Below, one piece after another: positions 4,991-36,376 of a stretch of DNA of 64,000 nucleotides. Both the position numbers and the translations under genes were made by a program. The notes beneath the pieces were generated by a model. That model was not told the origin of the DNA and did not search any database. It saw only the letters and a list, made by a program, of their open reading frames with translations. This DNA is from Thiocapsa bogorovii (GTDB taxonomy: Bacteria; Pseudomonadota; Gammaproteobacteria; Chromatiales; Chromatiaceae), in contig NZ_CP089309.1 in assembly GCF_021228795.1 (NCBI RefSeq), positions 3,224,001 to 3,288,000 on the forward strand, given 5' to 3'. Each line of letters starts with the position of its first letter. The first letter of the stretch is position 1.

Positions 4991-6859
4991 TCAGCGCTGA
5001 GTGCCATAGAGGGTGGCGTAGTGGCCGACCTCGTCGATCAGATCCTCGTGACGCCCTTCCTGACTGATGCGTCCCTGCTCCATGACGACCACGCGGTCGG
5101 CTTGGAGGACCGCGGTCAGGCGGTGGGCGATGATGATGGTGGTTCGACCGGACAGGAATCCGGTCATGGCCCGATGCAGGCGCTCTTCCGTCCCGGTGTC
5201 GAGCGCGGAGGTCGCCTCGTCGAGGATCACGACCTTGGGATCGGCCAGCACCATCCGTGCGACCGCCAGGCGCTGGCGTTGGCCGCCGGACAGCCGGACG
5301 CCGTCTCGGCCGAGCACGGCATCGAGCCCTTCGCTTAACCCTTCCACCACGTCCTTGAGCTGGGCGATCTCGAGTGCATGCCAGAGACGCGCGTCGGGGA
5401 TGTCGCGTCCGAGGGTCAGGTTCATGCGCAGGCTGTCGTTGAAGAGCGACGGATCCTGCAGGACCGTGGCGACATGGTCTCTGACGACGTCCAATCCGAT
5501 CTCCTCGACCGGGATTCCGTCGAAGAGGATGCGGCCGTGACGGATCGGGTAGAGCCCGAGGATCACCTGCACCAACGTCGTCTTGCCGGCGCCGCTCGCG
5601 CCGACCACCGCGACCTTCTCGCCCGCCGCGATGCTCAACGTCACACCGTTCAACACGGGTTCTCCGCCTCCGTAGTCGAAGCGCACGTCTCTCAGATCGA
5701 TCGCGACCGTCTCCTTGCCGGCGAAGGGGTCTGTTCGATGAGGGTACTTGGGCTCCAGCCCCATCCCGAGCAGTCGATTGATGCGTTCCAGGGCGGCCTG
5801 TGCGCTGTGGTAGTCGTATTGGACGTCGAGCATCGTTTGCAGGGGGTTCATCATGAACCATAGATAGGCAAAGACGGCCAGCATTTGACCGATCGATAGA
5901 TCCGAGAAGACCACCATGAGCATGGCCGCTACGCGGAAGATATCGAAGCCGACGATGAAGATCAGGAACGACAGCCGGTTGGCGGCGTCCGCCTTCCATC
6001 GGTACTCGAACGAGGTGTCGCGAATCCGGCGGGCACTCTCGACGCTGCGCCCCACGTAAAAGCCTTCCCGATTGCTGGCCCGAATCTGCCGAATCGCGTC
6101 GAGCGTCTCGGAGATCGACTCCTGAAACCCCTGAAATGCACGGTTTTCCTGCCGTTTCAACGCCTTGACGCGCCGCCCGAACCGGGTCGTGATGTAGATC
6201 ACGACAGGGTTGAGCAGCAGGATGAAGAGCCCGAGCTGCCAATGCATCCAGAGCAGGACGGCGGCGGTGCCGAGGATGGTGAGCGTGGCGACCAAGAAAC
6301 GACTGACCGCGGAGGAGACCAGGTCATCGATCGCGTTCATGTCCGTCACGAGATGAGAGGCGACCGTGCCCCCGGCGAGGGTCTCGTACTCGGCCATCGA
6401 GACGCGCTCGAGCCGATGCAGCAGATCGCCGCGCATGCGAAAGACGACATCCTGGGCGATGCGGCCGAAGAGACGTGTCTCGACGATGCTCAGTCCGACG
6501 TTCGCGAATCTCAGCACAAGCGTTGCGAGCAAGGCCGCGAGCAGATACCACATGGGGCCTTGCCAGCTCGCGGGCGAGATGTGGTCGATGAAGGCGACCA
6601 TGGCCCCGGGGTCGTCGAGCAGGACCTCGTCGACCATCAGGGACAGGATCAAGGGCATCGGAATCGCGGCGAGTGCGGCCAGGATGGCCACCAGGTTTGC
6701 AAGGATCAGCTCACGGCGATGGCGCAGCACCATGTCGGCCAAGACACGCCAATCGTATCGGCCCGGCGATGCATCGGCGCGGGCCGACGAGCGCTGCTCG
6801 ACGCGATCGGTGACGCGATCGGCGGATTGATCTGCGACTTGATCGGCGGGCAAGGTCAT
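4991..6859 (-). CDS. ABC exporter, fused permease-ATPase (MsbA-like)
   Basis: A 622-residue half-transporter. An N-terminal transmembrane domain of about six helices (residues 50-345) is followed by an ATPase with Walker A GASGAGKTT, Q-loop VLQDPSLFND, signature LSGGQ, Walker B VVILDEATS and the H-loop IIIAHRL. This fold order is that of lipid, peptide or polyketide exporters that work as homodimers in the inner membrane. It is the last gene of the leftward polyketide operon, 75 bp after the PLOD-like gene, so export of the lipid-like product is a reasonable inference. The residues before 35 are low-complexity and charged (repeated ADRV/TDRV). The substrate cannot be read from sequence. Confidence 0.9.
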   Translation of the reverse strand: MTLPADQVADQSADRVTDRVEQRSSARADASPGRYDWRVLADMVLRHRRELILANLVAILAALAAIPMPLILSLMVDEVLLDDPGAMVAFIDHISPASWQGPMWYLLAALLATLVLRFANVGLSIVETRLFGRIAQDVVFRMRGDLLHRLERVSMAEYETLAGGTVASHLVTDMNAIDDLVSSAVSRFLVATLTILGTAAVLLWMHWQLGLFILLLNPVVIYITTRFGRRVKALKRQENRAFQGFQESISETLDAIRQIRASNREGFYVGRSVESARRIRDTSFEYRWKADAANRLSFLIFIVGFDIFRVAAMLMVVFSDLSIGQMLAVFAYLWFMMNPLQTMLDVQYDYHSAQAALERINRLLGMGLEPKYPHRTDPFAGKETVAIDLRDVRFDYGGGEPVLNGVTLSIAAGEKVAVVGASGAGKTTLVQVILGLYPIRHGRILFDGIPVEEIGLDVVRDHVATVLQDPSLFNDSLRMNLTLGRDIPDARLWHALEIAQLKDVVEGLSEGLDAVLGRDGVRLSGGQRQRLAVARMVLADPKVVILDEATSALDTGTEERLHRAMTGFLSGRTTIIIAHRLTAVLQADRVVVMEQGRISQEGRHEDLIDEVGHYATLYGTQR

Positions 6860-6934
6860 CGGCGGGGGCTCGGGGGCTGGTCGAGATGTTCGCGCCGGTG
6901 CGGGGTGAGTCGATCGTGTCTCATCTCGGCCCGA

Positions 6935-7720
6935 TCATGTGTCATCCGTGGTGTGCCCGGTGTCGATGCGGAAGATCGGCGCAGCGACAAAGCCGATGTT
7001 TTGGAACATGCGGCAACGGTAATCGAGGGCGATGTCCGAGGGCCTCTCCATCCAGAGGGTGCGCAGGATTCCCTGCTCGGAATCGGGGGCCTCGGGGGCG
7101 GCGGGAATCTCGAGCGCGGCGGCGAAGAGGTCGCGACAAAACGCGGTCCGGCCGATCCAGGTCCCCCCGTTGAGGTAGTGGCAATCACCCGGCTGCCCGG
7201 CGGCCATCGCGCGCTCGAAACGCTTGAACCGCGGCAGCGGAGGCCAGCTCAGACGATCGGCCCCGAAGACGATACCGGTCGCGAAGTGGTCCTCGAACCG
7301 ATCCACGAGGATCTCGGGGTTGCCAAGGATCAGGGCGTCCCGCGAGTCTGCGTAGAGGACGTAAGGGGTGTCGATCGTATCGAGCAAGGCGCGAATCGTC
7401 CGCGGTTTGTCGCGCGCGTTGACCCAGTCGCGAACACCTTGCCCGCCGACCCGATAGGGCACGCCCAAATGCTCGAGCCCCCGTTCGAGCAGTCCCATGG
7501 CCTGCGCGCCGTTGTTGCAGGTGATGACGGTGACACGCGCGGAGGGACCGATCGTTGCCGGGGCCGAACGGAAGAAGGCGTCGCGAATCGGAGGCCAATG
7601 GGGATGGTTGCGATGGTGGCCGTGCGCGTGGACCACTAAGGGCTCGGTGCCGAGCTGCTCGTTGACGAGCCGCAGCCCGACCGGTTCCGCCGGCACCCGC
7701 GCCGACGGGGTACTAGACAT
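6935..7720 (-). CDS. PLOD-like glycosyltransferase
   Basis: A 261-residue protein resembling the glycosyltransferase domain of procollagen lysyl hydroxylase/glucosyltransferases. Diagnostic segments are VLYADSRDALILGNPEI (the metal-binding acidic motif), IVFGADRLSWPPLP and CHYLNGGTWIGR. Such domains transfer a hexose from a UDP-sugar. The start is ATG 7720, overlapping the stop of the upstream synthase by 8 bp with a GAGGG ribosome site six bases before it; a GTG at 7726 is an alternative. Its tight coupling to a polyketide synthase suggests that it glycosylates the lipid product, which is inference. Confidence 0.7.
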   Translation of the reverse strand: MSSTPSARVPAEPVGLRLVNEQLGTEPLVVHAHGHHRNHPHWPPIRDAFFRSAPATIGPSARVTVITCNNGAQAMGLLERGLEHLGVPYRVGGQGVRDWVNARDKPRTIRALLDTIDTPYVLYADSRDALILGNPEILVDRFEDHFATGIVFGADRLSWPPLPRFKRFERAMAAGQPGDCHYLNGGTWIGRTAFCRDLFAAALEIPAAPEAPDSEQGILRTLWMERPSDIALDYRCRMFQNIGFVAAPIFRIDTGHTTDDT

Positions 7721-10700
7721 TTGCACCCTCGCCGAGCCTTACCTCGGAGGCTCCGTGATCCGTCGCCTGTCGGGTCTTGCCCGCGATGCCCCACGGACCG
7801 TCTCCCGCGATGACCTCGCAGACATCCGACGCCCCGGCGGCCAGCTCCGCGATCAAGAAGCGCGCGCCGGCTTCGGGCGTGATGACCGGAATGCCCTGCC
7901 GAGCAAATCGCTCCTGGACCTTCGCATCCGCCATCCCGACCCCCGTCCAGGGCCCCCAATTGATCGCCAGGATACGGGTCTGCGGCCACTTCGCCCGCAT
8001 CATCCAAGCCAATCGATTGAGCGTCTCGTTGGCAGCGGCATAATCGCTCTGGCCGCGGTTTCCGAAACGCCCGGCGGTCGAGGCGAAGAGCACCAGGGTT
8101 CCCAGTCGCTCGGGGTCCAGGCGGGCCATCAGCGTATGTGCGGACTTGGCCTTGGTTTCGAAGACACGGGCGATGGAGTCCGGTGTCTTGTCTACGAGCA
8201 GTCGGTCTTCGATCACGCCTGCCCCGTGCAGCAGGAGATCGATACGCCCGAGCCGCGTCTGGAGCGCCTCGATCAGGGCGCCGAATGCACGCGAGTCGCG
8301 AACGTCGCAGGCGTGATACTCGACCTGAATCCCGGACGCGCGTAACCGTCGGAGCGTCGCGACGGCCTCTTGGTGCCGGACGACGGCGCCGACCTCGCGC
8401 TCGATGACGGCCGGAGGGCGCGATCGTCCGGCGGCGCGATCCGCATGGATGAGCCTCGTGCGGATCTCCGCCGGGGTTTCTTCTTCGCCGCCGTCGCTCG
8501 CCGAGGCATCTTCGAGCGCTTGTCGGCCGATCAAGACCACACGCATGCCCGGACGCGCCAGCGCGCAGACCAGCGACGCGGTGATGCCTCGGGCACCGCC
8601 CGTGGCTAGGATGACGGCATCCTGGGGAAGCTCGGCGCCGTCCGTGTCGGTGTGGGCGAGGGGTGCCGGACGCGGGGAATACGACCAGCGTTCACCTTGC
8701 AGGTAACCGACCTCAGTCGCACCGCCCGGAGAGAGGAGCTCGTTGACGAGTGTATCCGCGACGGCGAGGGGCGGCCGATCCCGCTCGAAGTCCAGGCAAC
8801 GGGTGTGAAGCGACGGCCATTCATGCTCGAGGCTTCGTAAGATCCCGAGCGGTGCGGCTGCGACAGGCGATCCCGCAAGCAGCCTTCCGTCTCGGCCGAA
8901 GCGTCCGCCCAGAGCGGACGCCGACAGAATCCATCGCGTTTCAGTGCGATCCGAGCGGGCGAAGTCGCTGCGAACCGCTTGGAGGAGCCGGAAGAGGTCC
9001 AGCACGCTGCGCCTGCAGGCATCGGCCCAATCGACGTGATCTCCCTGATCCAGCCCGGCGAGATGCACAATGCCCTGAACGGGGCCATAGGCCGAGCGCA
9101 GCGCGGCGAGCGTGTCATCGAGGTCGTCGCCGGCCTCGACCAGTCCGGCATAGGCGCCCCGCAGCTCGAGGAGGGCTGCGAGCTCCTCGGCAACGCCCAG
9201 TCGGTCGCGCGTGACGATGTAGAGTCCGCTCAGGCGCGCATCGCTCGACGTCGAGAGGGGCTGTTCTACAGGCGCCATGACATAGCGTGGACAGGCATCG
9301 ACGGTACTTCGCGGCGGTGCTGCAGAGGGCGCCTTCGACGGGGTGGTCGGCTGCGTCGTTTCTTTGGCCCGGGAGAGTCGAGAGACCCATTCCCCGAGAT
9401 GTCGAAGCCGGGTCAAGTCCTCCGAGAAGGCGTGGATGTCGACATCGGCGCGCCCCGCAATCTCTTCTCGGAGGCGGTCCGCCATCTCGATGCGTTTCAA
9501 CGAATCGATGCCCAGGTCGGCCTCGATATCCTGTGTCAGATCGAGCATGTCGGCCGGATACCCGGTGACCTCGGACGCGACACGCAGGATGGCCTCGGCC
9601 CAATCGATGGTGTTCCCTGTACTGACGTCGGCTCGGACGGGCCGATCGGCTACGCGGACGCCGGTTGTCTGCGCGCCGCCGGGCGGCATGCTTACGGGCG
9701 GCACGGATTCGGCGGATTCGAGCCACCCCCGCAAGGTGCGGATACGGGCTAGCCTATCGACGTCGAGGTTGCCCGTGCCGGCCCCCGGCAGCGCGCGCGC
9801 AAAGGATTCGAGGATCTCGAGCCGCTTGAGCGAGTCGATGCCCAGCTCGGCCTCCATGTCGTCGTCCAAGCTCAACATGTCCTCCGGGTAGCCGGTGACC
9901 CGGGAGACCGTCTCCATCAGGATCCGTGTCGGATCCAGCGACGGCGGTGCGCTCGGCGCAGGCGGCGCCGAGGTCGGCGCCGGGCGGGGCTCGACGGGCA
10001 CCGATTCGCGAGACGGCTCTGAAGCCGGTGTGACCGACGGTCGGGCGACCGCCCCGGGGATCGAAGCAGGTTGCGAGAGGCTCGCCGGGGCGGGCAGATC
10101 GCCGCCGACGAGTGCGCTGAAGATACGCTCCTGGCTGGCGATGAAGGCCTGCACCGTTTCGGCGTAAGCCTGATAAATGCCCGCAACCCCGGCGTCGTCA
10201 CCGACCGCCGGCAATGGCGAGCGGCTTGGCTGAAGGCGCGCGGATTCGGTTGCTTCACGCGCCCGTTCGGCCTGTTCGCGTGCGAGCGAATCGGTGTCGT
10301 AGAGGGGCTTGAGCGCACGCCATCGCGAGGTCTCTGAAGAGCCGTCGCCGTTCTCCGAGACCGGCCAGGCCATGTGCCCGTCGACCATCCAGGAGGTGGG
10401 TCGGACGGGTGGCGCCAAGGCGGCCCGGCACACCTCGTCGATGCCGCGAATCCGCTCGACCCGTCCGTCGAACAGGCGCGCGAGATCGATGGGCCGACCG
10501 GCGCGCCAGAGTGCGGCGAGCCCTTTGAGGAAACCGGGCATCCCCTGTTTGCCGGGGTCGAGCGCGACGATACGGACATCCTCCGGAAGGTCCATCGTCC
10601 CGAGTAGACCGGCCAATGTCTCCATCGGACCCACATCGACGAAGACGCGTGCCCCCGCGTCCATCATCCGCCGCACCATCGCGACGAACTCGACCGGCGC

Positions 10701-13700
10701 AGTCAGATGGCTGTTCAGATGGGCGGCGACGTTTGGGCCCTCCAAGCGCCGGCCGTCGATATTGGAGTAGGCCGCGATCCGGGCGGGACTTGGGGAGATG
10801 CGTGAAAGGTCATGGGCGAAGGCATCGCTCGCCTCTGCCATCAAGGGCGAATGGAAGGCCGTCGACACCCGCAGTCTCATGACGCGCCAGCCCTTGTCGG
10901 CCAATCCGGCGCAGGCGGCCTCGAGCTGCGGGGCAGGGCCGGAGATCACCACCTGCTTGTCGCTGTTGTGATTGGCGAGCACGATCCCCGGGTATCGGCG
11001 GAGCTCGCTCTCGACGGCCTCGCGCTCGGCAAAGACCGCAGCCATTCCACCGGGGCGGTTGACCGCCGCCATCAAGCCACCTCGCGCGGTCGCGAGGTCG
11101 ATGAAGTCGTCGAGTGACAGCACGCCTGCGGCATGCAGTGCGGTCAGCTCGCCGAAGCTGTGACCGGCGACCATGTCCGGGATCACGCCCAAATGCTGCA
11201 GATAGGCGACCGAGGCCGCCGAGACGGCGCCGATAGCGGGTTGTGCCACACGGGTGTCGATCAATCGCTCGTCGAGGCGAGCGCGGTCGGACGCATTGAA
11301 GACCGACGGCGGAAAGAGGTAGTCGTCCAACGCAAGCGGGAGCTTGCCCTCCAAGCGCGCGCGTACATGCGATAAGACCGCTCGGGCAGGCGGGGCATGA
11401 AGGGCCAGTGCCCGTCCCATACCGACGTACTGGGCGCCTTGGCCGGGGAACAGAAAGGCGACGGTGTCGACGCCGTCGGTCGAGCGTTGCTCCAAGCCCA
11501 GCTCGCTCGGCAGGCGGCGTGCGGGTTCGTCCAGCGCATCCATCAGGCCGGCGAGGGCGTCGGCGAGTCGCCCCAGGTCGGGGACCACGGCGGTTGCGAC
11601 CCAGCCCGTGCGCGGATCGCCTGCAGCCTGCGCGCAGGCTGCCGCCAGGGTGCGCAGAGGCGGCTTTGCGCCGCGGGCGAGCCAGTCCTGCAGATGGGTG
11701 AGCTGCGCCCTCAACCGCGCGCGATCAGGCCCGTGAAACACAAACAGCTCGGCGGGCCAGCGGTGGCCGCCGCACGGTGCGGGCGGGCCGCCGAGTGCGC
11801 GATATTCTTCCAAGACGACGTGACTGTTGGTGCCGCCGAAGCCGAAGGCGCTGACGGCGGCGCGATGCGGATGGGACTGTCGATCGAGCCAGGGACGGGG
11901 TGCGTCCAGCAATCGCAGGGGCGACCCCGAGCGCGCCAACGCCGGAATCGGGTCGGTGACGCCGTAATGCGGGGGTAGAACCCCATGGTAAAGGGCCAAG
12001 GTCGTCTTGGCCAAACCCAACAAGCCGGCCGCTGTCTTGGCGTGGCCGAGGATCGATTTGAGCGACCCGAGGGTGCAGCTTTCGGCTCCCACGCCGCCCG
12101 TATCCAGCAGCCCGCTGTAGGCTTCGATCTCGGATTGGTCGCCGACCCGAGTCCCCGTGCCGTGAGCCTCGTACAACTCGATGCTCGACAGCGGGATCGC
12201 CGCTTTGAGGTAGGCACGGCGCATCGCCCGCAGTTGGCCTTCCGTGCGAGGCGCCGTCATTCCCATCGCGCGCCCGTCGCTCGAGGCGCCGACCGCCTTG
12301 ACCACGGCGTAGATCCGGTCCCCGTCGCGCTCTGCGTCCGCAAGACGCTTGAGCACCATCACGATTGCGGCTTCGCTCGGCACGAAGCCGTTGGCGGACG
12401 CGTCGAATGCGTGCTCGGTACCCGTGGGAGAGAGTGCGCCGGTGCGCGTAAATCCCGTGTATGACCCCGGACTTTGGCCGACGTCCACGGCGCCCACAAG
12501 GGCGAGATTGGTACGACCGGACTCCAGCGATTGAACGGCGATGTCCAAGGCTGTCAGCCCCGATGCGCAGGCGGCATCGACCGTTAGATTCGGGCCGCCG
12601 CAATCGAAGCGGTTCGCGACCCGACCCGCGACGACACTGGTGAGGCCGCCTGCAAAGGTCTCGTCCGCCAGCTCGGGCGTGCGCGCCTTGATCTCGGCGG
12701 CATGCGGGCCGGCAACGACGGGCGCCATGGCGCGGGCACGAATGGCGTCCCCGGTGAACCCGGCGGCATCCGCGGCGCCGAAGATCACGGCGGTTTCCTC
12801 CCGATCGAAATCGCCGTCGGGGTATCCGGCATCCAGGAGGGCACGTCGCGTCATCTCCAGCATGAGGAGTTGGGCGGGGATGATGTTGCCGACCGATTTC
12901 GGCGGGATGCCGAACAGCAGTGGATCGAACAGGACGGGGTCGAAGAAGCCGCCCCAGCGGCATACGCTCGCATCAGGGTCACGGCCCTCGGGGTCGTGGT
13001 AGAGCCGCCAGTCCCAGCGCCCTGCCGGAATCTCGCGGGTCCGCGGTTGTGCGGCGAGAATGACGTCCCAAAGCGCTTCGACGTCGGCCGCGCCCGGCGC
13101 GAGCATCCCGATGCCGATGATGGCGATATCGCTCGGCTTCGCCTCCCGAGCGGAATCCGCACCGCGCAGCGCCGTCGCCTCGGCCGCGCTGGCCTCGAGC
13201 CATCGTGCCGCATCCTCGGTGACGCTGCGATGAAGGCGGGTGATGTCGGTCAGCTCGTCCTTCACGACGGCACAGTCCCCGATCATGAACATGCCGTCTC
13301 GCTGCTGTTGCTCCGAAGGGGCTTCGATCAGCCGCTCCCCTTCCCGAGCAATCCCCTTTGTCGCAATGCGCAGCCGTCCGAGCAGGAGTGCATCGAGTTG
13401 CTCGCGGGTCTCGTCGATCGAGCGCTGAGCCTGCAGAAGCGTCCGGCGATTGGCCAAGAAGAGGTCGACGAAGGGCGTGTCGATGCAGCGATTGGCGTGC
13501 CCAGGCGCGCTTTCGATCGTGACGGTGCGGCGGCACGCCAAGGCGGCATGCTGGAAACCCGCAACCACGGCACCGCGATCCACGGCCTCCCGGGTGTAGA
13601 GATAGGCGGTTCCCATGAGCATCCCCCAGGCTGCTCCGCGCGCGACCAGCGGAGCGGCGACGGTGGCCGCCATGGCTGCGCTGGCCGCGTCGTGGATTCC

Positions 13701-15209: not shown

Positions 15210-15278
15210 GACGTCTCCAACGGAGGGGTTGCGCGCGGTCATCCGAACACGCAGCGAAACGGGTCGGGCACGGGCGTC

Positions 15279-16762: not shown

Positions 16763-16766
16763 GAGG

Positions 16767-19853: not shown

Positions 19854-19905
19854 CGCTTTAGGATCCGGCCGCCGTCGATGCGCGTTCGATCGTCGCTCAT
19901 CGGGC

Positions 19906-24509: not shown

Positions 24510-27500
24510 GTGAAGAGCGCACAAGACCGCGCGGCCGATGTGGGTCATCCGCCCGTCGGCACTCGAACGTCCCGGCTCCATCTGCTCTGCGCGCCCGCTC
24601 GGGCCGATCTGTGCCGTGCGCTGCGCGGGGCTCTGGAGCACGGGGCCGATACGTTCGAGCCTCCGGCGTCCGGCGCTCCCCCCGAGAGCCACCGACTGGC
24701 CATCGTCACTACGGACACGGCCGACTTTGCCGGTGCCGTTGCCCGTGCACTCGATGCGCTCGAAACGCGCTCGAGTGCGCGCTTCAATCTGGGAAACCGA
24801 ATCTACTATCGCGACGCGACCGGGTACGAGGAGCCGGGCCGCGTTGCGGTGCTGTTTCCGGGCTTCGGTCATCGCGATACCGGGCTTGCACGGCAGCTGG
24901 GCGGCCTCTCGCCTGCGGTCGACGCCTGGAACGCCGCCGTCGCGGGGCCTCGTCCGTTAGGGCTCGTATCCGGGGAGTCGGGTTCGGAGCTTGCGGGCAT
25001 GCTCGACGACGTGTTGATGGCCGATCTGGCCATGTGGGTCTTGATGAGGGATCTCGGCCTAAGCAGCGATCTGCTGGTCGGTCATAGCTTCGGCGAGCAC
25101 GTCGCCCTGGTGGCGTCTGGGATGGTGCCGAGCCTGGCCGATTTGAGCCCGCTCTTCGCGTCGGTCGCGAACCTCGACGCCGCCGGTGATCCGCTCGGGA
25201 TGCTGGCGATCACGGAGGCCGCCGTCGATCTCATCGCACCCGAGCTGGAGCGCGACCCGCCGTCGGTGTTCATGGCGCTGGACAATTGTCGACAGCAAAA
25301 GGTCTTCTGGGGTCCGTCCGCGGTGCTGGGGCGGGTCGAAGCGCGGGTCAAGGCGCAAGGCCTGCTGGCGTACCGTCTGACGGGTTTGGCGTGTCCGGTG
25401 CACACGCCGGCCTTCCCGGTTTCCGGGGAGCTGCTGCGCCGAGGTTATGCGGCACTCGCACTCTCGCCGCCGCGGATCTCGGTTTGGAGTTGCAGCCGGC
25501 TGCGTCCTCTGCCCGAAGAACGCGCAGCGGCCATCGAGGTGCTTGCCGCGCAATGGCATGAGCCGGTGCGGTTCCGCGAAAGCATCCTTGCGCTCTTCGA
25601 CGCCGGTTTCCGGACCTTCGTCGAGGTCGGCCCCGGCGAGCGGCTCTCCGGGTTCGTGCGCGAGACCCTTCGCGGCAAGGGCGTGTTGGCGGTGCCGACG
25701 CATCGCGAGGGTCACCCGCCCCTGCAAACGATTCAAGTCGCCTTGGCTCAGCTTTATCTCCTCGGCCAGACGATCGACCCGGATCGCCTGAGCCCGCAGC
25801 CGAGCGTGTCCGAGGAGCGATTCGACGGTGGCGGGATCGCGTCGAGCAGTCCGCCGGAGACGCCCGGCGATACCGGGCTGCGACCGGCTGTGCAGCAACC
25901 CGCCTCGACGGATCGACACCGGTTCCGCGATCTCGTTGGGATGATTCAGGGCGAGGTCGCGGGATTGTTGGATCTCGCGGACCCCGAGTCGCTCGACTCC
26001 GACACCGGGTTTTTCGATCTCGGGCTCGGCTCCCTGGGTTGCGTAGAGCTCAGCGAGCGTCTCGGGCGGTTGCTCGGGAGACCTCTGCCGCAAACACTCG
26101 CATTCGATTACCCGGACATCGCTCGGCTGGCGCGGGCCTTGGCGAGCGCCCCGGGGACGTCTCCCGAGTGCGCCGACAGCGACCCGGGGCGCGCAACTTC
26201 AGCGCCCGAACCCGCGTCCGGGAACGAGCCGATTGCGATCGTCGGGATCGGTTGCCGCTTTCCGGGCGGGGTCGATTCGCCCGATGCATTCTGGCAACTG
26301 CTCCGAGAGGGCCGTGATGCGATCTCCGAGGTCCCGCCCGCGCGTTGGGATCCGAGGGCCTACGAGGCTTGGATCGATGCCGACCAGCGTGAAGCCGCCC
26401 GAAACGGCGGGTTTCTTGCCGACGCCTTGGGCTTCGATGCCGATTTCTTCGGTATCTCGCCCCGTGAAGCCAAGACACTGGATCCGCAGCAGCGCATGCT
26501 TTTGGAGGTCAGCTGGGAATCGCTCGAAGACGCCTGCATCGATCCCAAAGGTCTCGGGGGTTCCCGCAGCGGCGTCTTCATCGGCATCAGCAGTGCCGAT
26601 TATGTTCAGCGGCTCTCGCCCGCGCAGCGTCTGGAGGTCGGAGGCTATCTCGCCACGGGCAATGCGGCCAGCACGGCAGCCGGGCGAATCGCGTTTGCAT
26701 TGGGCCTGAACGGCCCGGCGATGGCGGTCGATACGGCCTGCTCGTCGTCACTCGTCGCGGTTCATCTGGCCTGCGATAGCCTAAGACGCGGCGAGAGCGA
26801 TTTGGCGTTGGCCGGGGGTGTCAATCTGATGCTGAATCCGGAGACGACCGTCTTTTTGGCCAACGCGCATGCCCTCTCGAAGGGCGGGCGATGCAAGACC
26901 TTCGATGCGAGCGCCGACGGCTATGTGCGCGCCGAGGGCTGCGGCGTCGTGGTGCTGAAGCGACTCTCGGATGCGCTGGCTGCAGGGGATGCGGTCGTCG
27001 CCGTCGTCTTGGGTTCGGCCGTCAATCACGACGGCCGCACCTCCGGCTTGACGGTCCCGAGCGGTCCCGCCCAGAGCGCCTTGATCCGCGACTGTCTGCG
27101 TACGGCGGGGATCGTGCCATCCGATGTCGGCTACCTCGAGGCCCACGGAACCGGGACCCCCTTGGGTGATCCGATCGAGCTGCAGGCCCTTGGGGAGGTC
27201 TTTCGCTCGGCGCGGGCGGCGCCCCTGAGACTCGGATCGGTGAAGACCAATATCGGCCACCTCGAGGCGGCGGCCGGGATCGCCGGGCTGATCAAGGCCG
27301 CGCTGCAACTGCGCCGCCGTCGGCTGGTGCCGAGCCTGCATTTCCGGACACCCAACCCGCGCAGCGACTGGGCGTCGCTGCCGTTCGAGGTCAACCGGGA
27401 CGATCGGGATTGGGACTCTGCTGGGCGGCGGATCGCCGGGGTCAGCTCCTTCGGCATCAGCGGAACCAACGCCCATGTGATCCTTGCCGAGGCGCAGTCA

Positions 27501-30350
27501 ACGGGTTCGGCGACCGAGCCGAATGCGGAGTCGGATGGGGCCGACACGGGTCGCGCGCATCTGCTGGTTCTGTCGGCCCGAACCCCCGAGGCACTGCGCA
27601 CCGCGGCGCTGCGGATGGTTGATCGCCTGGAGGAGAGACCGGTAGGTCGCTCGGTGGATCGCCCGATGGATCCTGGGGTCGTCGAGCCGGGTGCGTTCAC
27701 AACGCTGGTTGGTTGCGCTGTGCCGAGGCTGGTGGACTGCGCTTCGCTTGTCCACCCTACACCGCTTATCCACCCTACGCCGCTTGTCCACCCTGACGCT
27801 ACGATGAGGGATGGTGCCGGGTTTATCGGCGACGCCGTCGAGCCCCTGTCGGCACTGTGCCGGACCAGTTGGCTCGGACGTCACCACTGGCGCTACCGCA
27901 TTGGGGTGGTCGCACGCAGCCGCTCGGAGGCACGCGATCGACTGCGCGAGCGTGCGGCCTCCGCGGCTTTCGACCATGCCGGTGCCGAGGGGCGTGCGCC
28001 GCGTATCGCCTTTCTGTTCACCGGTCAGGGCTCGCACGAGCCGGGGATGGGGCGTGAGCTCTATGCGACCGAGCCGGTGTTTCGCAGGGCATTCGATCGC
28101 TGTTGCGAGGGGCTCGCCCCCGATCTGGATGCGCCGCTTGCCGAGGTGGTTCTGGATCCTCGCGATCGGCGTTTGGAACAAACGGCTTGGGCCCAACCCG
28201 GACTCTTCGCGCTCGAATACGCCTTGGTGGAGATTTGGCGCAGCCGTGGAATCCTCCCGGACGTGGTGATGGGACACAGCCTGGGCGAGTACGTCGCGGC
28301 ATGCGTGGCGGGCGTGATGTCGCTCGAGGATGCCCTGCGACTGGTCGCCGCGCGTGCACGTTTGATGCAGTCCTTGCCGACGGGTGGCGGCATGCTGAGC
28401 GTCGCGGCCTCTCCCGAGGGGCTGGAGTCCGTCGTCTCGCTCGCGTCGCTCGGGCTGGACCTGGCCGCGGTGAACGGCCCCGCGAGTCTTGTGGTCGCGG
28501 GGCCGGTCGGCGCCCTCGATCGCGCGGAGCGTCGGCTCATGGAGGCCGGGATCGGTTGTCGTCGTCTGCCCGTCTCGCATGCCTTTCACTCGCGCCTGGT
28601 CGAGCCGATCCTGGCCGAATTCGGTGCACAAGTGGTGGGGTGTCGGCTCTCGGAGCCGCGGATCGAGATGGTGTCCAATCTCACCGGGCAGAGGGTGCGA
28701 CATGAGGTCACGGATCCCGCGTACTGGGTCGAGCACCTTCGAAGCACGGTTCGATTCGAGGCCGGGATGCGGACGCTCTCGACGCTTGGCTGCGATGCCT
28801 ATGTCGAGATCGGCCCGAAGCCCGTGCTGATCGCGCTCGGCCGCGAGGCGGCAGGCGACGCTCGAAGCGCGCTCTGGCTTGCGAGCATGCAGCCGCCGGT
28901 CGATCCGAGCATTACCCTGTTGAATACCTTGGGCCAGCTCTACGAGCGAGGCGCCGACCCGAATTGGACGGGGTTGGAGCCCGCCGCCGGGACGCGGCCG
29001 CGGGCCCGGCTGCCGACCACGCCCTTCGAACGCCGGACCTTCTGGATCGAGCTCGCCGAAGGGCGTCATGTCGCCGCTGCTCCGTCGGATTCGCTGCCGC
29101 CGCGTTTGCCGGGGCGTCTGTTGGATCTCCCCGGCGAAACCGGTGCTTTGCGCTTCGAGACCCGTATGTCCATCGGCACGACGCCGGAGCTCGAAGGCTA
29201 TCCGGGGCTCGCCGAGTATGCCCTCCCGCCCGCTGTTCTGCTCTATGCGGCGTTGCAGGCGGTACGTCGGGCCGCTCCCGGCGGGCGCCTGTGGTTGGAG
29301 GATCTGCGGCTCGTCGGTGTCCAGCGGCTCGCGGACCCCGGCGTGATCCTGCACACCTTGGTCAAGATGCCGAGCGCCGAGTCTGGCGTCGTCGAGATCC
29401 ATAGTCGCGCCGAAGGTTCGGAGGATGAGCCTTGGAGCCTGCTCATGCAGGCGCGGGTGCACGCCGCATCGGAATCGCCCGTGCCCCATCCGGAGCTCCG
29501 GCGCATGTCAGGACGGACTCGGGATGCGGACGAATCGCTGCTCGAGCGTCTTCGCTCGGAGTATTCCGCGATCGAGAAGGCCGCTTTTTATCGCGCGGGG
29601 GAGCAGCTCGGATTCCGATACGGTCCCGATCTGCAGGTGCTGCGCGAGATCCGCCTTGGCATCGACGCGGCGAGCGCCGTTCTGGATCTGCAGATCGATA
29701 GCGGCGTCGCCCCGTCGCCCCTACCCGATCTGCCGCTGGCGGCGATCGAAGGCGGGCTGCAGCTCTTGGGCGGACTTGATGCCGGTGCGACACCGCCGCG
29801 GCTCGGACAGCTGCGCGCGATCGAGCGTGTCGAGATCCCGACTGCGCTCCCGCGTGAGGTCTTGGTCTTGGTCTTGGTTTGGCGGACGGAGGATCACGCT
29901 GCCGCGTCGATTCGGCTCCTCGATGCGCGGTCCCTGTTGTTGTGTGCAGAGCTTTCCGGGATTCAGGCCGACGAGATGGAGGTCTCCCGGGTCTCGGCGG
30001 CGGAGGGCGAGATTCGAGACAGGCTCGAGCGCGCGCCTCGCGAGGACTGGCCGTCGCTCATCGTCGGCTTCGTGAACCGCATCGCCGGTCTGATCATCGA
30101 TGGGAGCGCCGATTATCGCATCGACCCGCGCCGACCGCTCACCGAGCTCGGCCTGGATTCGCTGATGGCGCTGCGGATCGCCATCGAGCTGAAGGCCGAT
30201 CTCGGCGTCGAGGTCCCGGTCTCGCGGATCGTCGCCGGAGCCACGATCGAGACCCTGGCGGCCTCGTGCGTGGAGCAGGTCATGGGCGGCGATCAGGTGG
30301 TGCAGGGCTCGCAGAGGCTCGACGGATTCTTCCAGGAGGGCGAGCTGTGA
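24510..30350 (+). CDS. modular type I PKS: AT, ACP, KS, AT, degenerate DH, ACP
   Basis: A 1946-residue synthase. An N-terminal acyltransferase (GHSFGE, Ser near 192; PVHTPAF) is followed by a carrier (GLGSLGC, Ser near 508), which looks like a loading unit. The ketosynthase (about 573-1000) has DTACSSS with Cys744, HGTGT and GHLEAAAG, the modular subgroup. The second AT has GHSLGE (Ser1257) and HAFHS, a malonyl-CoA type. A double-hotdog region follows at about 1530-1800, but its catalytic His and Asp are replaced ([18 protein letters not shown]). The final carrier has GLDSLMA (Ser1884). No KR or ER is present. The GTG start at 24510 has no strong ribosome site and is uncertain. A repeat-rich insert lies between KS and AT. 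Confidence 0.88.
27731..27798 (+). repeat. REP-like palindrome plus three 18-bp tandem units inside the PKS gene
   Basis: GGTGGA (27731-27736) pairs with TCCACC (27751-27756), and the latter recurs at 27769 and 27787. The three 18-bp units begin at 27745, 27763 and 27781 and encode LxHPTP-like repeats in the KS-AT linker. The palindrome resembles GGTGGA...TCCACCCTAC sequences that I recall as dispersed intergenic repeats in gammaproteobacterial genomes. Confidence 0.7.
30334..30340 (+). promoter_or_regulatory. ribosome binding site AGGAGGG that sets the NRPS start
   Basis: A near-perfect Shine-Dalgarno sequence ends six bases before GTG 30347, which overlaps the PKS stop TGA (30348-30350). 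This favours GTG 30347 over ATG 30356, which would be 15 bases away. Confidence 0.75.
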
Positions 30351-33300
30351 GCGGCATGGAGCCGTTCGAGAACCTGGTGCTCGCCGGATGGCGATTCTGG
30401 CTGGACGGGGACCGGCTGCGTTATCGCGCTCCGAAATCGGGTCTCGACGCGGAGGTCTTGGAGCGGTTGCGAGCCGATCGGGCGCGATTGATCGACGTGC
30501 TGCAGCGGGATCCCGGGTGCTTGGATCTTGCCCCTCTCTCGCATGGGCAAAGGGCGCTCTGGCTGCTGCAACAGCTCGAACCCGGGTCTGTCGCATACAA
30601 CCAGTCGATGCTGCTCAATCCGGGTCCCGCGGCCGATGCAGCGCATTGGCGCGCGGCTTGCCGACACCTCCTGAAGCGGCATCCCGTCTTGGGTGCGACT
30701 TTCGCGCTGCGGGACGGAGAACCGGTCCAGCGCTTCGGCGTGTGGGCCGAACCACCGGATTGGGCGGAGATCCGACTGCCGTCCGAGACCTCGGGCCTGA
30801 CGGAGACACTGCAACGCCTTCAAGCGGAGCCCTTCGATTTGGAACGCGGGCCCGTCGCCCGGTTTCGGTGGATCCTCGCCGAGACGGGGCCGACCTTGGC
30901 GATCCTCATCCACCATATCGCCTGCGATGGCTGGTCTTTCGAGATCATGCGGCGCGAGCTGCTCGCGCTGTGCGATCGGGCGGACGCGGACGGGGATCCG
31001 GCGCAAAGCCTCCCCGAGCTCCGCTACGATTATCGCGATTTCGTGCTGTGGCAGCGGGAGATGTTGGCGAGCGCACGGGGCGAGCAACTTTGGGATTTTT
31101 GGAAGACTGTGCTCGCCGGCCCGATTGCGCCGCTTGAGCTTCCGAGAGATTTCGCGCGATCGCCGAAGCCATTGCGTTGCGCGGGCACCGTCGAGAGCGT
31201 CCTCGACGCCGAGGCGGCTGCGCGGCTCGGCGTGTTGGCCAAGGCCCGAGGGGTGACCCTCAATGTCCTCATGCTGGCGGGATTCCTGGCCCTTCTGCAC
31301 CGCTGGACGCGGCATACGGATCTTCTCGTCGGGGTGCCGACGGCAGGTCGCGGACTCCCCGAATGGCAGGGGGTGGTCGGTTACTTTGTCGACCCCGTTG
31401 GGATCCGCGCCGGGGTCGATCCGGACGACGCCTTCGATACCTTGCTCGAGCAGGTGCGCTCGCGCTTTCTGGCTGCCCTCGAGCATCGGGATCTCCCCTT
31501 CGCCTTGATCGTCGAACGCCTGGGTGGGCAACGCGATCCCGAGCGCTCGCCGCTCTTCGATGTCCTGTTCAATTTCATCGGCCTTCGGGGCGCGGAGCCG
31601 CTCGCGGAGATCGCGGCGGTCGACGCGAAGTTCGAGCTCACGCTCACCGTCGTCGAGCTCGACGCAGGTCTTCGGTTGAGCTTCGGGTTTCGCACCGATC
31701 TTTTCGAGGCGGCAACGATCGAGCAGCTCGCAGCCGGTTTCAAGCGGTTGCTCGCCGCCATCTGCGACGATTCGAGCCGCCCGCTGGCTCACTTGCCCCT
31801 CTTAGCCGATGCTGTTCCCGCCCCTGCGATTCGCGGCCGCACGCTCGACTCGGCGACACTCGCGCCGGTCCACGTCTTGATCCGGGAGGCCGGTCGTCGC
31901 TGTCCCGATGCCGTGGCGTTGGCCGATCGGCCCGAGGTCGACATGAGCGCGGTACGATCATTGACCTATCGCGCCCTGTCGAGCGAGATCGATCGCATCG
32001 CCGGCGGGCTCCTGTCTGCCGGCTGCGTCAGGGGATCGCGGATCGGTCTGTGTTGCGAGCGCGGCTCCGATGCCGTTGTCGGTCTGCTTGCGGTCCTCGC
32101 CGCAGGCGGGGCCTACGTTCCTCTGGACCCGGACGATCCGCCGCACCTGATGCGCGAGATGCTGGCCCGGGCCGCGGTCTCTCTGCTGTTGACCCAAGGT
32201 GTGCTTGCGGAACGTCTCCGAACCTTGGGCGCGCCGATACTACTCTTGGAGGACATGCAGGCGCCGACGCCCGGACGGAAGCCCCCCGATCCCGGGGTCG
32301 GTCCGGACGACCTCGCCTGTGTCATCTTCACCTCGGGCTCCACCGGCCGACCCAAAGGGGTCGCTGTCGAGCATCGTGGTCTGACGAACTACGTGGCCAG
32401 CATGACGGAGGACCTCGGGATCCAGCCGGGATCCAGCTTCGCGTTGGTTTCCTCGCTCACCGCGGATCTCGGTAACACCGCCATCTTCCTCGCGTTGACG
32501 AGCGGGGGAACCCTGCATGTCCTGCCGAAGGCAATGACGACGGAGCCGGCCGGCTTTCGGGACGCCCTCGCGCACGGGATCGATTACTTGAAGATCGCAC
32601 CCTCGCATCTTGCTGCCCTCGGGATCGGCGGGCCGCGGGCATTGCCGCGCAAGGGGCTGATTCTCGGCGGCGAGTCGAGCCCATCCGACTGGGTCCAGGG
32701 GCTGCTCGGGGAGGGCGGGTGTCGAATCTTCAACCATTACGGTCCGACCGAGGCGACGATCGGCGTCTTGATACACGAGGTGCGTCGCGAGGACCGAGGA
32801 TCCGGCCCGACCTTGCCTTTGACCCGGGCGGTCGCGAACTGCGCCGTATTCCTGCTGGATCCGAGTCGGCAGCCTGTGCCGAGGGGGTTTCCGGGAGAGA
32901 TCTGGATCGCCGGGCCTTGTTTGGCACGAGGATACGTCGGCGAAATGGCCGACGGCGTACCGGGTTTCGCGGTGCTCCCGGGCATCGGGCGGGCCTACCG
33001 GACCGGTGATCTGGCGCGGCAAGGTTCAGACGGAGGGTTGCGGATCCTGGGGCGGGTGGATCGGCAAGTGAATCTCCACGGACATCGTATCGAGCTGGTG
33101 CAGATCGAGCAGGCGCTGGTGGCGCATGGCGAGGTCGATCAGGCGCTCGTGCTGCCCGATGTCGACGGGCTGCAGGCGTCGCGACTGATCGCATGGGTTG
33201 TGGTGTCCGAGGCCGGAGGCGCGGCATTGTCGGGGGAGACGCTGCGCGGCTTTCTTGCTGCGCAGCTGCCGGCTCACCTGATTCCGAGTCGGTTCAACCT

Positions 33301-34522
33301 CGTTGATCGCATCCTTCTGACCCCGAACGGCAAGGTCGATGCCCGAGCCATGCGCGCACTGCAGCCGGCGGAGATGCCCGGCGAACGGCACCCCACCATC
33401 ACGGATGCGACCCAGTTGCGCCTGTGCGTGATCTTCTCGGAGGTCTTGCGCGTCGAGCAGGTGAGCGCGCGGGACGATTTCTTTGCGCTCGGCGGGCATT
33501 CGCTTTTGGCGGTCCAGCTGGCCGGGCGGATTTTCCGAGAGTTCGGCAAGCGCTTGCCGCTTGCCGTCTTCTTCACACATCGCACGGTCGAGGCACTCGC
33601 CGAGGTGCTTCGGGAGTCGGGCGATCCTGCCGAGCGGGACTCCATTCTCGTGCCGATCCGCCGAAGCGGGGACGGCGCGCCGATCGTCCTCTTTCCCGGA
33701 GCTGGCGGCAGCATTCTTTACTTCGAGGCATTGGCGGTCGCCTTGGGCGGCGTGGCCCCGATCTGGGGTGCGCAGGGCTCGAGGGGTGACATTGCGACGA
33801 TGGCCTTGCGATACCATGAGGCGATTCTTGATCGCCTCGGGCCTCGGCCCTGCCATCTGATCGGTCATTCCTTTGGTGCATTGGTCGCCTTCGAGCTTGC
33901 GCGCTTGCGTGAAGGCTGCGGCCATCCAACCGGATCGCTCTGGGTCTTGGACAATCCGGCCCCGCGGGCGGCGAGTGAGGAACGATACCGTCACTGGAGC
34001 CTCTCCGATTGGTATGCCCATATCGCCCGACGGATCGCCCGACTTTATGATGTCCCTTTGGCCCTCGATCGCGACGCGTTGGAAGGTAAGACAGACTCCG
34101 AGCAGGCCGAGCTCTTCGCCGGGTACCTGGTCGAGGCTGGTGCACTGCCGCGAGGGACGCCTCGGGAGCAGCTCGACGATTTTGTCGTGACCTATCGCGA
34201 GAACGTCATTGCAGGGGAGCGCTACGCTCGACCGAGTGCGCCTCTGCGCGTGCCGATTCACCTCGTCAAGGCGTGCGATCGGGACGTTCTAATCGCATCC
34301 GAGGATGGTCCGGAGGATCTACTGTCGGGTTGGGAGGCATGCAGCCTGTATCCGATCCGGTCGTTCGAGGTTCCCGGAACCCACATCACGATGCTGCTGC
34401 GGCCCCACGCCGATCATCTCGCCGAGTGCATCCGATCGCTGATCGCGGCGTCATCCGAGTCAGCCGAGTCGGCCGAGTCGGCCGAGTCGGCCGAGATGGA
34501 TCACGAGGTACTGTCCCGATGA
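30347..34522 (+). CDS. single-module NRPS: TubC-like docking, C, A, T, TE
   Basis: A 1391-residue synthetase. Residues 1-55 ([20 protein letters not shown]) match the TubC N-terminal docking domain that receives a chain from an upstream subunit. The condensation domain (about 60-480) has HHIACDGWS. The adenylation domain (about 510-1000) has [27 protein letters not shown] and NGKVD; hand alignment gives the pocket code D-L-T-K-L-L-H-I-G-K, close to aspartate-type codes. The carrier has GGHSLLA (Ser near 1052) and the thioesterase GHSFGA (Ser near 1174). The C terminus ends in SAE repeats. It likely condenses one amino acid with the acyl chain from the preceding PKS and releases the product by TE. 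The GTGA overlap with the PKS gene shows coupling. Confidence 0.9.
34457..34495 (+). repeat. 9-bp tandem repeat encoding (ESA)n at the NRPS C terminus
   Basis: Four GAGTC(A/G)GCC units plus a partial unit lie just before the stop of the NRPS gene and encode a flexible [13 protein letters not shown] tail. Copy number may vary by slippage in steps of three residues. Confidence 0.85.
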
Positions 34523-35535
34523 ATGCGGCCTTTCTCGCCTGCGGCGGTATGCTGGCCTGCGCGGTCGGAGCCGCAGCCCGTCTTGGGATTGCCGACCTTC
34601 TCGCTGACGAGCGGTTGTCGGCGGATGCCTTGGCTGAACGAACCGGGACCCTTCCCGACGTTCTCGAAGCCGTCCTGGACCTGCTTTGTACCCAAGGGGT
34701 GTTTTGTCGCGATGAAGCGGGTCGCTTCTCCAACACGCCGGACTCCGAGCCTTTGCGCTCCGCTCATCCGCGATCGATGCGCCATTTCTGCATGTTGGCG
34801 TCCGCCGAGTATCAGCAGGCCTTCGGGGCGCTGATGGTGACCCTCTCGACCGGCGAATCCGGGTTCCGCGCGACCTTCAACGGCTCGATTTACGACTATA
34901 TGACCCAGAATCCGGAGGCCGGTCGCGTCTATGATCTGGCGATGGAGGATTTGTCGCGTCCCTTGTCCTCGACGCTTGCGAGCGAGTGGGTCTTCGCGGA
35001 GTCCACGACCCTGTTGGATCTCGGAGGCGGACACGGCGTCTTGCTCCGCGGTCTTCTGCGCGCGCGACCGGATGTGCTGGGCATCTGCTTCGATCGCCCG
35101 GATGTCTGCGCGCGGGGTGAGCTCGATCTTCGGGAGACCGCCTCGGATCTGCTCGGACGCCTGCGTTTCATGGCCGGTGACTTCTTCTCCGACGTTCTGC
35201 CGGATGCCGATGTCTACCTGCTGAAGAACGTCATCCACAATTGGACGGACGAGAGCGCGATCCGGCTTCTCTCGAACGTTGCGGACGCGCTGAGCCGGCG
35301 CTCGAATGCACGATTGTTGGTGATCGAATCGCTCACGGATGGCGGATTCTCCGACACCTATCGTGCGATCGATAAGATACTTGCTCGTGTACTCTGCGAA
35401 TCCGGGACACGTCTGCGCGACCTGAATACATTGAGCCGTTTGATCGAGCGTAGCCGCCTCGTGTTGTTGCGGACACATGGGCTGTCGACCGGGCATACCC
35501 TTCTGGAATGCAGAGGCGTATCGATTGAATCGTGA
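34519..35535 (+). CDS. SAM-dependent O-methyltransferase (COMT/AdoMet_MTase family 2)
   Basis: A 338-residue methyltransferase with an N-terminal helical dimerisation region (about 1-90, including a winged-helix-like LAERTGTLPDVLEAVL) and a C-terminal Rossmann domain. The SAM loop is LLDLGGGHG and the catalytic region reads LKNVIHNWTDE, with the His expected as general base. The family methylates hydroxyl groups of phenolic or enolic polyketides. The ATG overlaps the NRPS stop as ATGA, so it acts in the same pathway. An open frame reaches further upstream but lies within the NRPS gene and is not used. Confidence 0.85.
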   Translation: MNAAFLACGGMLACAVGAAARLGIADLLADERLSADALAERTGTLPDVLEAVLDLLCTQGVFCRDEAGRFSNTPDSEPLRSAHPRSMRHFCMLASAEYQQAFGALMVTLSTGESGFRATFNGSIYDYMTQNPEAGRVYDLAMEDLSRPLSSTLASEWVFAESTTLLDLGGGHGVLLRGLLRARPDVLGICFDRPDVCARGELDLRETASDLLGRLRFMAGDFFSDVLPDADVYLLKNVIHNWTDESAIRLLSNVADALSRRSNARLLVIESLTDGGFSDTYRAIDKILARVLCESGTRLRDLNTLSRLIERSRLVLLRTHGLSTGHTLLECRGVSIES

Positions 35536-35548
35536 GGATCGACGTGCA

Positions 35549-36376
35549 ATGCCGCCGAGGCGTGGCGATCAGCAACCGAAGAGTCCCGTCGCCGGGACCT
35601 GTGCGGCCCTCCCGCCGAGCCGATTCTCCCGCCTCGTCGAGCGACCGCTTCCTCCGCTCGACGACGAGGTTCATCTCTACACTTGGGATTTGGACCGGCG
35701 CGCCCTGCAGATCGAGGACGATTGGATGTCGCACGACGAGCGCGTCCGCGCCGAGAGGTTCCGGTTTGAGCGAGACCGGCGCCGATTTCGTGCGACGCGG
35801 CAGACGCTGCGTTGGATCCTCGGGTCGTATTGCGGATGCTCCCCCGAGTCGATCCGATTCGGCTACGGCCGAGCAGGCAAGCCGCACCTCGTCGGCAGCG
35901 AACTGGGTTTCAATCTCTCCCACTCGGGAGGGCGGGCACTCCTGGCGGTCGTATCGCGCGGTGCCGTCGGGGTCGACCTCGAGGAAGTCAGGCCTATTGG
36001 GGGTCCGCTCGGAATTGCCGAGCACTTTTTCTCGCCGATCGAAGTAGCCGAGCTCAAGCGGATTTCCCTTCAATCCCCCTCGCTCCTGCTGCAGGCATTC
36101 TTCCAGTGTTGGACACGTAAAGAGGCCTATTTGAAGGCATCCGGCGCGGGGCTGTCGGAAGAGGCTCTTCGCGCCTTCGCAGTCTCCTGTCACCCGGACG
36201 AGACGCGGCGTCTTTTGACTGACGATAGTCGCCTTGGGGCTCATTCGGGATGGTCCTTTACCGACGTCGTGCCCCACGACGGTTTTGTCGGCGCCGTGGC
36301 GGTGTCCGAAGAGTGTAGGCGTTGGTCGGTATGGGCATTCGAGCTCGATTCGCAGATGGGAGATTTCGGGCCCTAG
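35549..36376 (+). CDS. Sfp-type 4'-phosphopantetheinyl transferase
   Basis: A 275-residue enzyme that activates carrier domains by attaching phosphopantetheine from CoA. The motifs are FNLSHSGG, GVDLEEVRP (metal-binding Asp/Glu) and WTRKEAYLKASGAGL, complete and in the usual order. ATG 35549 has GAGGA about ten bases upstream and lies 13 bp after the methyltransferase stop. As the last gene of the rightward operon it should serve the seven carrier sites encoded in the cluster: two in each PKS, one NRPS T domain, the free ACP, and possibly others elsewhere. Confidence 0.92.
   Translation: MPPRRGDQQPKSPVAGTCAALPPSRFSRLVERPLPPLDDEVHLYTWDLDRRALQIEDDWMSHDERVRAERFRFERDRRRFRATRQTLRWILGSYCGCSPESIRFGYGRAGKPHLVGSELGFNLSHSGGRALLAVVSRGAVGVDLEEVRPIGGPLGIAEHFFSPIEVAELKRISLQSPSLLLQAFFQCWTRKEAYLKASGAGLSEEALRAFAVSCHPDETRRLLTDDSRLGAHSGWSFTDVVPHDGFVGAVAVSEECRRWSVWAFELDSQMGDFGP

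Follow-up and report, generated by a model that had tools for sequence, protein, structure and literature searches.

Two divergent operons in Thiocapsa bogorovii predicted to couple a Pfa-like lipid synthase to a one-module polyketide synthase and peptide synthetase

The DNA analysed here, hereafter the window, is a 64,000-nucleotide stretch of the 5.65-Mb, single-contig genome of Thiocapsa bogorovii, which we take to be a purple sulfur bacterium. Positions 4991 to 36376 contained two divergent operons, the leftward one combining a lipid synthase of the Pfa/heterocyst glycolipid (Hgl) kind with sugar genes, and the rightward one comprising a one-module polyketide synthase (PKS) and a one-module nonribosomal peptide synthetase (NRPS). 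We rate as about even the chance that the two form a single cluster whose product would be an exported glycolipid with a head derived from aspartate; the evidence is presented below. The leftward operon ran from 24218 down to 4991, its genes overlapping or lying <80 bp apart, and the rightward operon ran from 24510 to 36376; both are listed in order outward from the region between them. Domains are abbreviated as ketosynthase (KS), acyltransferase (AT), acyl carrier protein (ACP), ketoreductase (KR), dehydratase (DH), enoylreductase (ER), condensation (C), adenylation (A), thiolation (T), thioesterase (TE), and phosphopantetheinyl transferase (PPTase).

24219..24509: divergent intergenic region of 291 bp between PKSB and PKSC
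20205..24218, minus strand: PKSB, KS remnant-AT (PfaB-type, GFSNG)-DH (HHRLGRVP...DAVGQ)-truncated PPTase remnant (Pfam, alignment, AT tree, motifs)
19906..20217, minus strand: free-standing ACP (TSVEAMEL around the Ser; weak AsbD match)
18729..19964, minus strand: GT-B glycosyltransferase, GT28 C-terminal type (GT28-C E 7e-5, modest)
17956..18795, minus strand: YdjC/ChbG-type carbohydrate deacetylase (Pfam E 2.7e-48)
16767..17984, minus strand: Gfo/Idh/MocA sugar dehydrogenase (Pfam; best PDB matches 3q2k/3q2i, also WbpB)
15566..16828, minus strand: DegT-family sugar aminotransferase (Pfam E 9e-55; PDB matches including WbpE and perosamine synthase)
15279..15569, minus strand: conserved protein of 96 amino acids (open reading frame [ORF] 15279-15641, conserved in Thiocapsa marina)
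7713..15242, minus strand: PKSA, PfaD-PfaA fusion, ER1 (no His)-ER2-KS-AT (malonyl type)-ACP-ACP-KR (Pfam, NCBIfam, motifs)
6935..7726, minus strand: glycosyltransferase, GT_PLOD-like (Pfam E 2.8e-8, modest)
4991..6859, minus strand: MsbA-like ATP-binding cassette (ABC) exporter (Pfam ABC_tran/ABC_membrane; best NCBIfam model MsbA, 364 bits, below its cut-off)
24510..30350, plus strand: PKSC, AT1 (PfaB-type, loading)-ACP-KS-AT2 (malonyl type)-DH-like region without His-ACP, no KR (Pfam, AT tree, motifs)
30347..34522, plus strand: NRPS, TubC-type docking-C-A (aspartate code)-T-TE (Pfam, motifs, LgrA alignment)
34519..35535, plus strand: O-methyltransferase (Methyltransf_2, with dimerisation domain)
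35477..36376, plus strand: Sfp/HetI-like PPTase (Pfam ACPS; HetI model E 3e-47, below its cut-off)

The genes and domains named in the original prediction were recovered with Pfam, NCBIfam, and motif comparisons, and their order was kept in T. marina. PKSA scored 884 bits against the PfaA model, below its cut-off of 1010. In the window and in T. marina alike, its KS Cys/His/His, the AT motif GHSFGE, two LGIDS carriers, and the KR motifs were intact, and ER2 was FabK-like with an ECGGH motif. ER1 was a weak FabK/NMO-like domain (NMO E 1.5e-5, below cut-off) in which the GGH motif reads AGW (ESAGW); the His was missing from this position in T. marina too and in five relatives with an alignable ER1 (two further rows could not be aligned). 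PKSB retained its AT and DH, the latter with the motifs HHRLGRVP and DAVGQ. Taken together, the full reductive set and the intact motifs of PKSA and PKSB support long-chain synthesis.

PKSB was compared with eight second proteins of relatives, four with the architecture KS-AT-DH-PPTase and four ending after the AT. Its "pseudoKS" proved to be a stretch of about 245 amino acids, of which residues 225-326 matched the C-terminal end of the relatives' KS plus linker (hhalign probability 91, E 1e-6; best of 20 shuffles, E 0.085). In the alignment with the relatives, neither the Cys nor the His of the KS active site was present. At the C terminus (20292-20732), a truncated PPTase-domain remnant lacked the catalytic half (hhalign probability 90, E 1.7e-6; the shuffle control covered the KS remnant). 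Judged from these alignments, PKSB no longer has the greater part of its KS, active-site residues included, nor the catalytic half of a fused PPTase. All domains originally named in the leftward operon were thus found, with the qualifications that ER1 is weak and carries AGW, that the pseudoKS is matched over residues 225-326 only, and that the PPTase remnant had gone unlisted. The two glycosyltransferases were likewise present with modest matches, and support for the free ACP was weak; the ACP matched the AsbD model at E 3e-4, far below its cut-off, and had no Pfam ACP match. ORF 19850-20233 was rejected as the ACP in favor of 19906-20217.

In PKSC, the predicted architecture AT-ACP-KS-AT-DH-ACP was recovered, with the DH reduced to a DH-like region that matched weakly (PS-DH E 0.0013 and PKS_DH_N E 0.0031, both below cut-off) and that carried, in both genomes, a Tyr at the position of the catalytic His, which we judged by the presumed HxxxGxxxxP motif. 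Neither Pfam nor a nucleotide-binding motif revealed a KR in PKSC. Since a KR is missing and the DH-like region lacks its His, the last extension should stay a beta-ketone.

The two ATs of PKSC fell on opposite sides of an AT tree of 24 domains (26 were found, and two short ones were dropped). PKSC AT1 and the PKSB AT, from the window and from T. marina, grouped with all eight ATs of the relatives' second, PfaB-type proteins, and the PKSA AT and PKSC AT2 grouped with malonyl-type ATs, the split being supported at 100/100. The tree and the second-protein alignment drew on 16 of 20 loci; L049, L059, L064, and L065 were left out, of which L059 and L064 hold similar proteins. Furthermore, all 12 domains of the malonyl side had the malonate-binding Gln/Arg pair and none of the 12 of the PfaB-type side did, a count that depends on the alignment. 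On the tree and this motif table, AT1 was set aside as a malonyl loader. According to the available excerpt of PMC12895367, PfaB of polyunsaturated fatty acid (PUFA) synthases also lacks the Gln/Arg pair, binds palmitoyl and not malonyl, and has been named a terminal acyltransferase, proposed to act on long chains at the end of synthesis. AT1 resembles it in belonging to an AT class without this pair and differs in being built into a PKS loading position and in keeping the GHSxG histidine. Because AT1 groups with PfaB-type ATs and lacks the malonyl Gln/Arg pair, it probably receives the finished chain and takes it onto PKSC.

The position of AT1 also bears on a convergent order of assembly, in which AT1 would load a short starter and the aspartyl unit made by the PKS-NRPS would be joined to the lipid by another enzyme. 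Such an order has a precedent in zeamine biosynthesis, where two parts made in parallel are condensed (PMC13291983, in the excerpt available). The placement of AT1 on the PfaB-type side of the tree, the TE at the end of the NRPS, and the absence of a second condensation domain from the 36 ORFs scanned with Pfam all argue against it, and we regard it as very unlikely.

The A-domain code of the NRPS, mapped by hand through an alignment with LgrA, was D-L-T-K-I-G-H-I-G-K, and the four code stretches were identical in T. marina. Its first eight letters, DLTKIGHI, are one conservative letter from the Asp code DLTKVGHI of SrfAB-M2 and likewise one conservative letter from DLTKIGHV, found in two Pseudomonas syringae pyoverdine domains predicted to be Asp type (PMC3207962, Table 2, the part of that paper used here). 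The A domain is therefore predicted to select aspartate; for the full ten-letter code, no exact match was found in literature text. With a single extension module, a single A domain of aspartate type, and a single TE, "lipopeptide-like," as the product was first described, is too loose a term, and a long-chain beta-ketoacyl-aspartate or a 3-acyl tetramic acid is the better reading.

Which of these two is released would depend on the TE. The terminal C-A-T with a TE in cis is present as an architecture, and in bacterial tetramates the ring is usually closed by a Dieckmann cyclase of the TE type, at the last NRPS module (PMC10956176, as excerpted); an unreduced last module followed by such a terminal module is the usual bacterial tetramate layout and speaks against simple hydrolysis. 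If the TE instead hydrolysed, the same pathway would give a linear glycosylated N-(beta-ketoacyl)-aspartate, an acyl-amino-acid surfactant perhaps O-methylated at the carboxyl. This outcome, which we hold to be unlikely though well worth considering, accords with the ordinary make-up of the TE (GHSFG...GTH) and with its best PDB matches, Vlm2 (E 7e-9) and Pks13 (E 5e-6), which indicate a general TE likeness and none specific to a known Dieckmann cyclase.

The sugar genes included a dehydrogenase whose best PDB matches, 3q2k and 3q2i, we take to be WlbA-type sugar 3-dehydrogenases. Together, the Gfo and DegT relatives, the YdjC deacetylase, and the two glycosyltransferases suggest a 3-amino sugar. 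The GT-B glycosyltransferase (18729..19964), whose true start probably lies further in, had no PDB relative at E 0.01. Neither Pfam nor NCBIfam gave a match to the 96-amino-acid protein (probable start at 15569), and no solved structure was a convincing relative.

The gene order of the cluster was the same in T. marina 5811, and the aligned proteins of 4991-36376 were 74 to 100% identical, so the cluster is not a chance arrangement. Identity was 74% for the PPTase (over 261 amino acids), 82% for PKSB, and 100% for ORF 15279-15641 over 120 amino acids; the other compared cluster proteins were 74 to 96% identical. In the divergent region, a promoter-like TTGAAG-17-TATACT lay at 24388-24360 on the minus strand, directed towards PKSB (shuffle mean, 0.0; a match to consensus only); both hexamers and the spacing were kept in T. 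marina, with two spacer bases differing. ORF 24294-24872 (minus strand), which overlaps the start of PKSC and has no Pfam family at 1e-5, was rejected as a gene.

The searches, a limited first pass, covered sampled genomes of the family, class, and phylum to which the window belongs, and the counts are among the matches listed. PKSB had matches at E 1e-20 in 14 of 210 family genomes, full length in the window and T. marina only (82%) and partial, at 26 to 34% identity, in the other 12. The AT1-ACP part of PKSC matched in 19 of the 210 at 1e-15, with an ortholog only in T. marina (87%) and at most 36% identity elsewhere. In the class and phylum samples, with the window counted, there were matches to PKSB in 13 of 321 genomes (at most 34% elsewhere), to the AT1 part in 11 of 398 (at most 35%), and to the NRPS in 13 of 321 (at most 38%). 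The sugar-gene DNA block was found in 2 of 11 genus genomes. Plasmid searches returned no ortholog, and a scan of genome contigs with two peptide patterns, which says little about other lineages, matched T. marina alone. A synteny search for both operons together, as had been proposed, found them together in both of the two family genomes, of 210, that have either. From ppi through FG-GAP, the genes stood in the same order in the window and T. marina, save for a sulfotransferase found in the window only, and the co-occurrence in two genomes is one inherited locus, not two independent associations.

These comparisons bear on a further explanation, that the operons are mere neighbours with two products, a heterocyst-glycolipid-like envelope glycolipid from the leftward one and a separate acyl-aspartate from the rightward one. 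Its best argument is that pairs of PfaDA with KS-AT(-DH-PPTase) proteins were present in other family and class genomes where the 10 to 40 kb compared contained neither an NRPS match nor a PKSC ortholog. In addition, the genome holds two ACPS-family genes, the PPTase at 35477-36376 and one elsewhere, so the PPTase argument for linkage is not exclusive; that PKSB depends on the rightward-operon PPTase is plausible, not forced. On the other side stand the PfaB-type loading AT in PKSC, the truncation of the PPTase in PKSB while the rightward operon carries one, and the co-occurrence in two of two genomes, and we consider two separate products decidedly improbable. The original proposal of one amphiphilic glycosylated product gains support from the same co-occurrence among the 210 genomes, the shared divergent region, the PfaB-type AT1, and the loss of the PPTase from PKSB.

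From the domain content, domain losses, AT classes, A-domain code, and synteny read in the DNA, we infer a single pathway, including its order of transfer, ring closure, chain length, site of O-methylation, and the identity and position of the sugar. Working iteratively and with full reduction (KS-KR-DH-ER), PKSA and PKSB would form a secondary-lipid synthase that makes a long, mostly saturated acyl chain, which the PfaB-type AT1 would move from the lipid synthase ACPs to the first ACP of PKSC. PKSC would add one malonyl unit, kept as a beta-ketone for want of a KR and an active DH, and the NRPS would join the beta-ketoacyl chain to L-aspartate. Release by the TE would most likely proceed by Dieckmann closure to a 3-acyl-5-carboxymethyl tetramic acid, and otherwise yield an N-(beta-ketoacyl)-aspartate; the O-methyltransferase would cap the enol or the carboxyl. 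The Gfo, DegT, and YdjC gene products would supply a (deacetylated) 3-amino sugar, and the two glycosyltransferases would attach it, the acceptor probably being a hydroxyl that the chain retains. Export of the product would fall to the MsbA-like ABC protein.

Several observations weigh against this single pathway, in addition to the TE matches and the second ACPS-family gene mentioned above. PKSB residues 1-224 had no profile match and no Pfam match, and structure predictions of the PKSB N terminus and the PKSC DH-like region were unusable (pLDDT of about 36). The A-domain map was made by hand, through LgrA and the presumed code positions of PheA. No hydroxylase that could make a glycosylation site was seen among the scanned ORFs. 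The co-occurrence of the operons is known from two related genomes only. The AT tree gave AT1 a long branch (2.2), and its likeness to PfaB is incomplete, as AT1 and the eight relatives' ATs keep GHSxG, PKSB has GFSNG, and the PfaB studied in the excerpted PMC12895367 has GYSxG. In the same source, hand-over of the product to another carrier by PfaB is a proposal only, and some PfaB relatives hydrolyse. Finally, the product itself is a predicted one.

Next to the exporter gene, two genes may belong to the cluster.

1832..3286, plus strand: GNAT-family acetyltransferase (Pfam Acetyltransf_9), possible accessory for sugar N-acylation, membership uncertain
3267..4862, plus strand: PIG-L deacetylase joined to a weak GT2-like region, possible accessory

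Counting the window's own genome, the GNAT gene had matches in 4 of 11 genus genomes, close only in T. marina (82%), and the PIG-L gene had matches in 6 of 11, at 92% only in T. marina and at most 40% in the others. A second PIG-L deacetylase with a GT2-like region, about 37% like the first, lay at 46023-49346. On the other flank, the sulfotransferase gene (36486-37136) followed the PPTase gene and had no counterpart in three compared T. marina stretches (tblastn, 1e-10). The adjoining 37279-58083 was mostly of lower GC content (57 to 61%, with 66% at 44 to 46 kb) and contained FG-GAP/UnbV, sulfotransferase, several glycosyltransferase, WbsX, and ABC-2 permease genes and an ABC ATPase joined to DUF29; it looks like a surface-glycan locus. 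Elsewhere, secondary-lipid synthase pairs (PfaDA plus KS-AT, with or without DH-PPTase) recurred in several family and class genera (loci L050-L062), and a further modular PKS-NRPS locus was present in genome G005 and on another T. marina contig (L063, L066). The latter may be the source of the T. marina KS-AT-carrier protein-PLP protein, a different NRPS-PKS protein, described in the excerpted part of PMC3870968.

The kind of cluster to which this locus belongs is already known, and the present variant is new within the searched literature. The original prediction knew of no described cluster with this exact set, and none was found in the literature searched; the general kind, combining PUFA-synthase-like, PKS, and NRPS genes, has been described, with 63 such "triple hybrid" clusters charted in 2026, most of them in six named clades (PMC13291983, as excerpted). 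The words Thiocapsa, Chromatiaceae, tetramic, aspart, and ancorinoside were absent from the main text of that paper, the supplement lying outside this scope. By gene content, the locus agrees with the triple hybrids in its PfaA-type PKSA, FabK-like ER2, and PfaB-type AT and DH in PKSB. By proximity, which there means PKS and NRPS genes within 20 kb of Pfa-like genes and conserved in a relative, it agrees in the 291 bp between PKSB and PKSC and in the T. marina order. Compared by description only, triple hybrids likewise combine adjacent genes for a Pfa-like synthase, a PKS, and an NRPS, and that of Ottowia thiooxydans has a fused pfaDA, a fused pfaBC without a canonical KS-chain length factor, and a glycosyltransferase, as here (PMC13291983). 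The Thiocapsa cluster differs in its one PKS extension module, one NRPS module, aspartate code, TE, PfaB-type loading AT, sugar-gene set, and divergent operons. Hgl and other secondary-lipid synthases, again by description, share the iterative long-chain synthase, glycosylation genes, and a PPTase (best model HetI), to which the Thiocapsa cluster adds a PKS-NRPS partner and amino-sugar genes.

Other literature touched the organism or the chemistry at the margins. The excerpt of PMC8382752 reports biosynthetic gene clusters from lake genomes and mentions neither NRPS nor polyketide. In that of PMC4882561, Thiocapsa figures solely as an expression host, and that of PMC3098273 names none of the queried purple sulfur bacteria. 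Literature searches for tetramic acid in combination with PUFA synthase or heterocyst glycolipid yielded no paper with tetramic acid. Bacterial polyketide tetramates share with the Thiocapsa cluster an unreduced final extension, one NRPS module (C-A-T), and a TE, and differ in that the acyl chain would here come from a PUFA-type synthase and not from a modular PKS. Among known molecules, the predicted product resembles the ancorinosides, diglycosyl tetramic acids from sponges, in its aspartate-derived 3-acyl tetramic acid, long plain alkyl chain, and sugars (PMC8541288, as excerpted). Ancorinosides also carry an N-methyl, D-Asp, a terminal O-glycoside, and a uronic acid, to which no Thiocapsa cluster gene is assigned. 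The NRPS had no N-methyltransferase domain, and no P450/AlkB-type family was found among the 27 ORFs scanned at 403-49346; the methyltransferases near the cluster were that at 34519-35535 and one fused to a glycosyltransferase at 40501-42594. As to the uronic-acid disaccharide of ancorinosides, the sugar genes of the cluster itself were considered, and these suggest an amino sugar. The cluster is thus related in idea to the ancorinosides, and ancorinoside itself is not the claimed product. In the excerpt of PMC8541288, a paper on synthesis and activity, no gene cluster was seen.

A PfaB-type acyltransferase in the loading position of the receiving enzyme would be a concrete way of plugging a lipid synthase into a PKS-NRPS. 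Should the product be a tetramic acid, the locus would provide, at the level of genes, a route to glycosyl tetramates with long chains, of which the ancorinosides of sponges are an example. We tentatively suggest, while regarding it as doubtful, that the cluster specifies a new class of bacterial glycosylated 3-acyl tetramic acid, its acyl chain coming through the embedded PfaB-type acyltransferase from a PUFA-type synthase instead of a modular PKS; if true, molecules like the ancorinosides would have a first genetic model, and this in an anoxygenic phototroph that is free-living.

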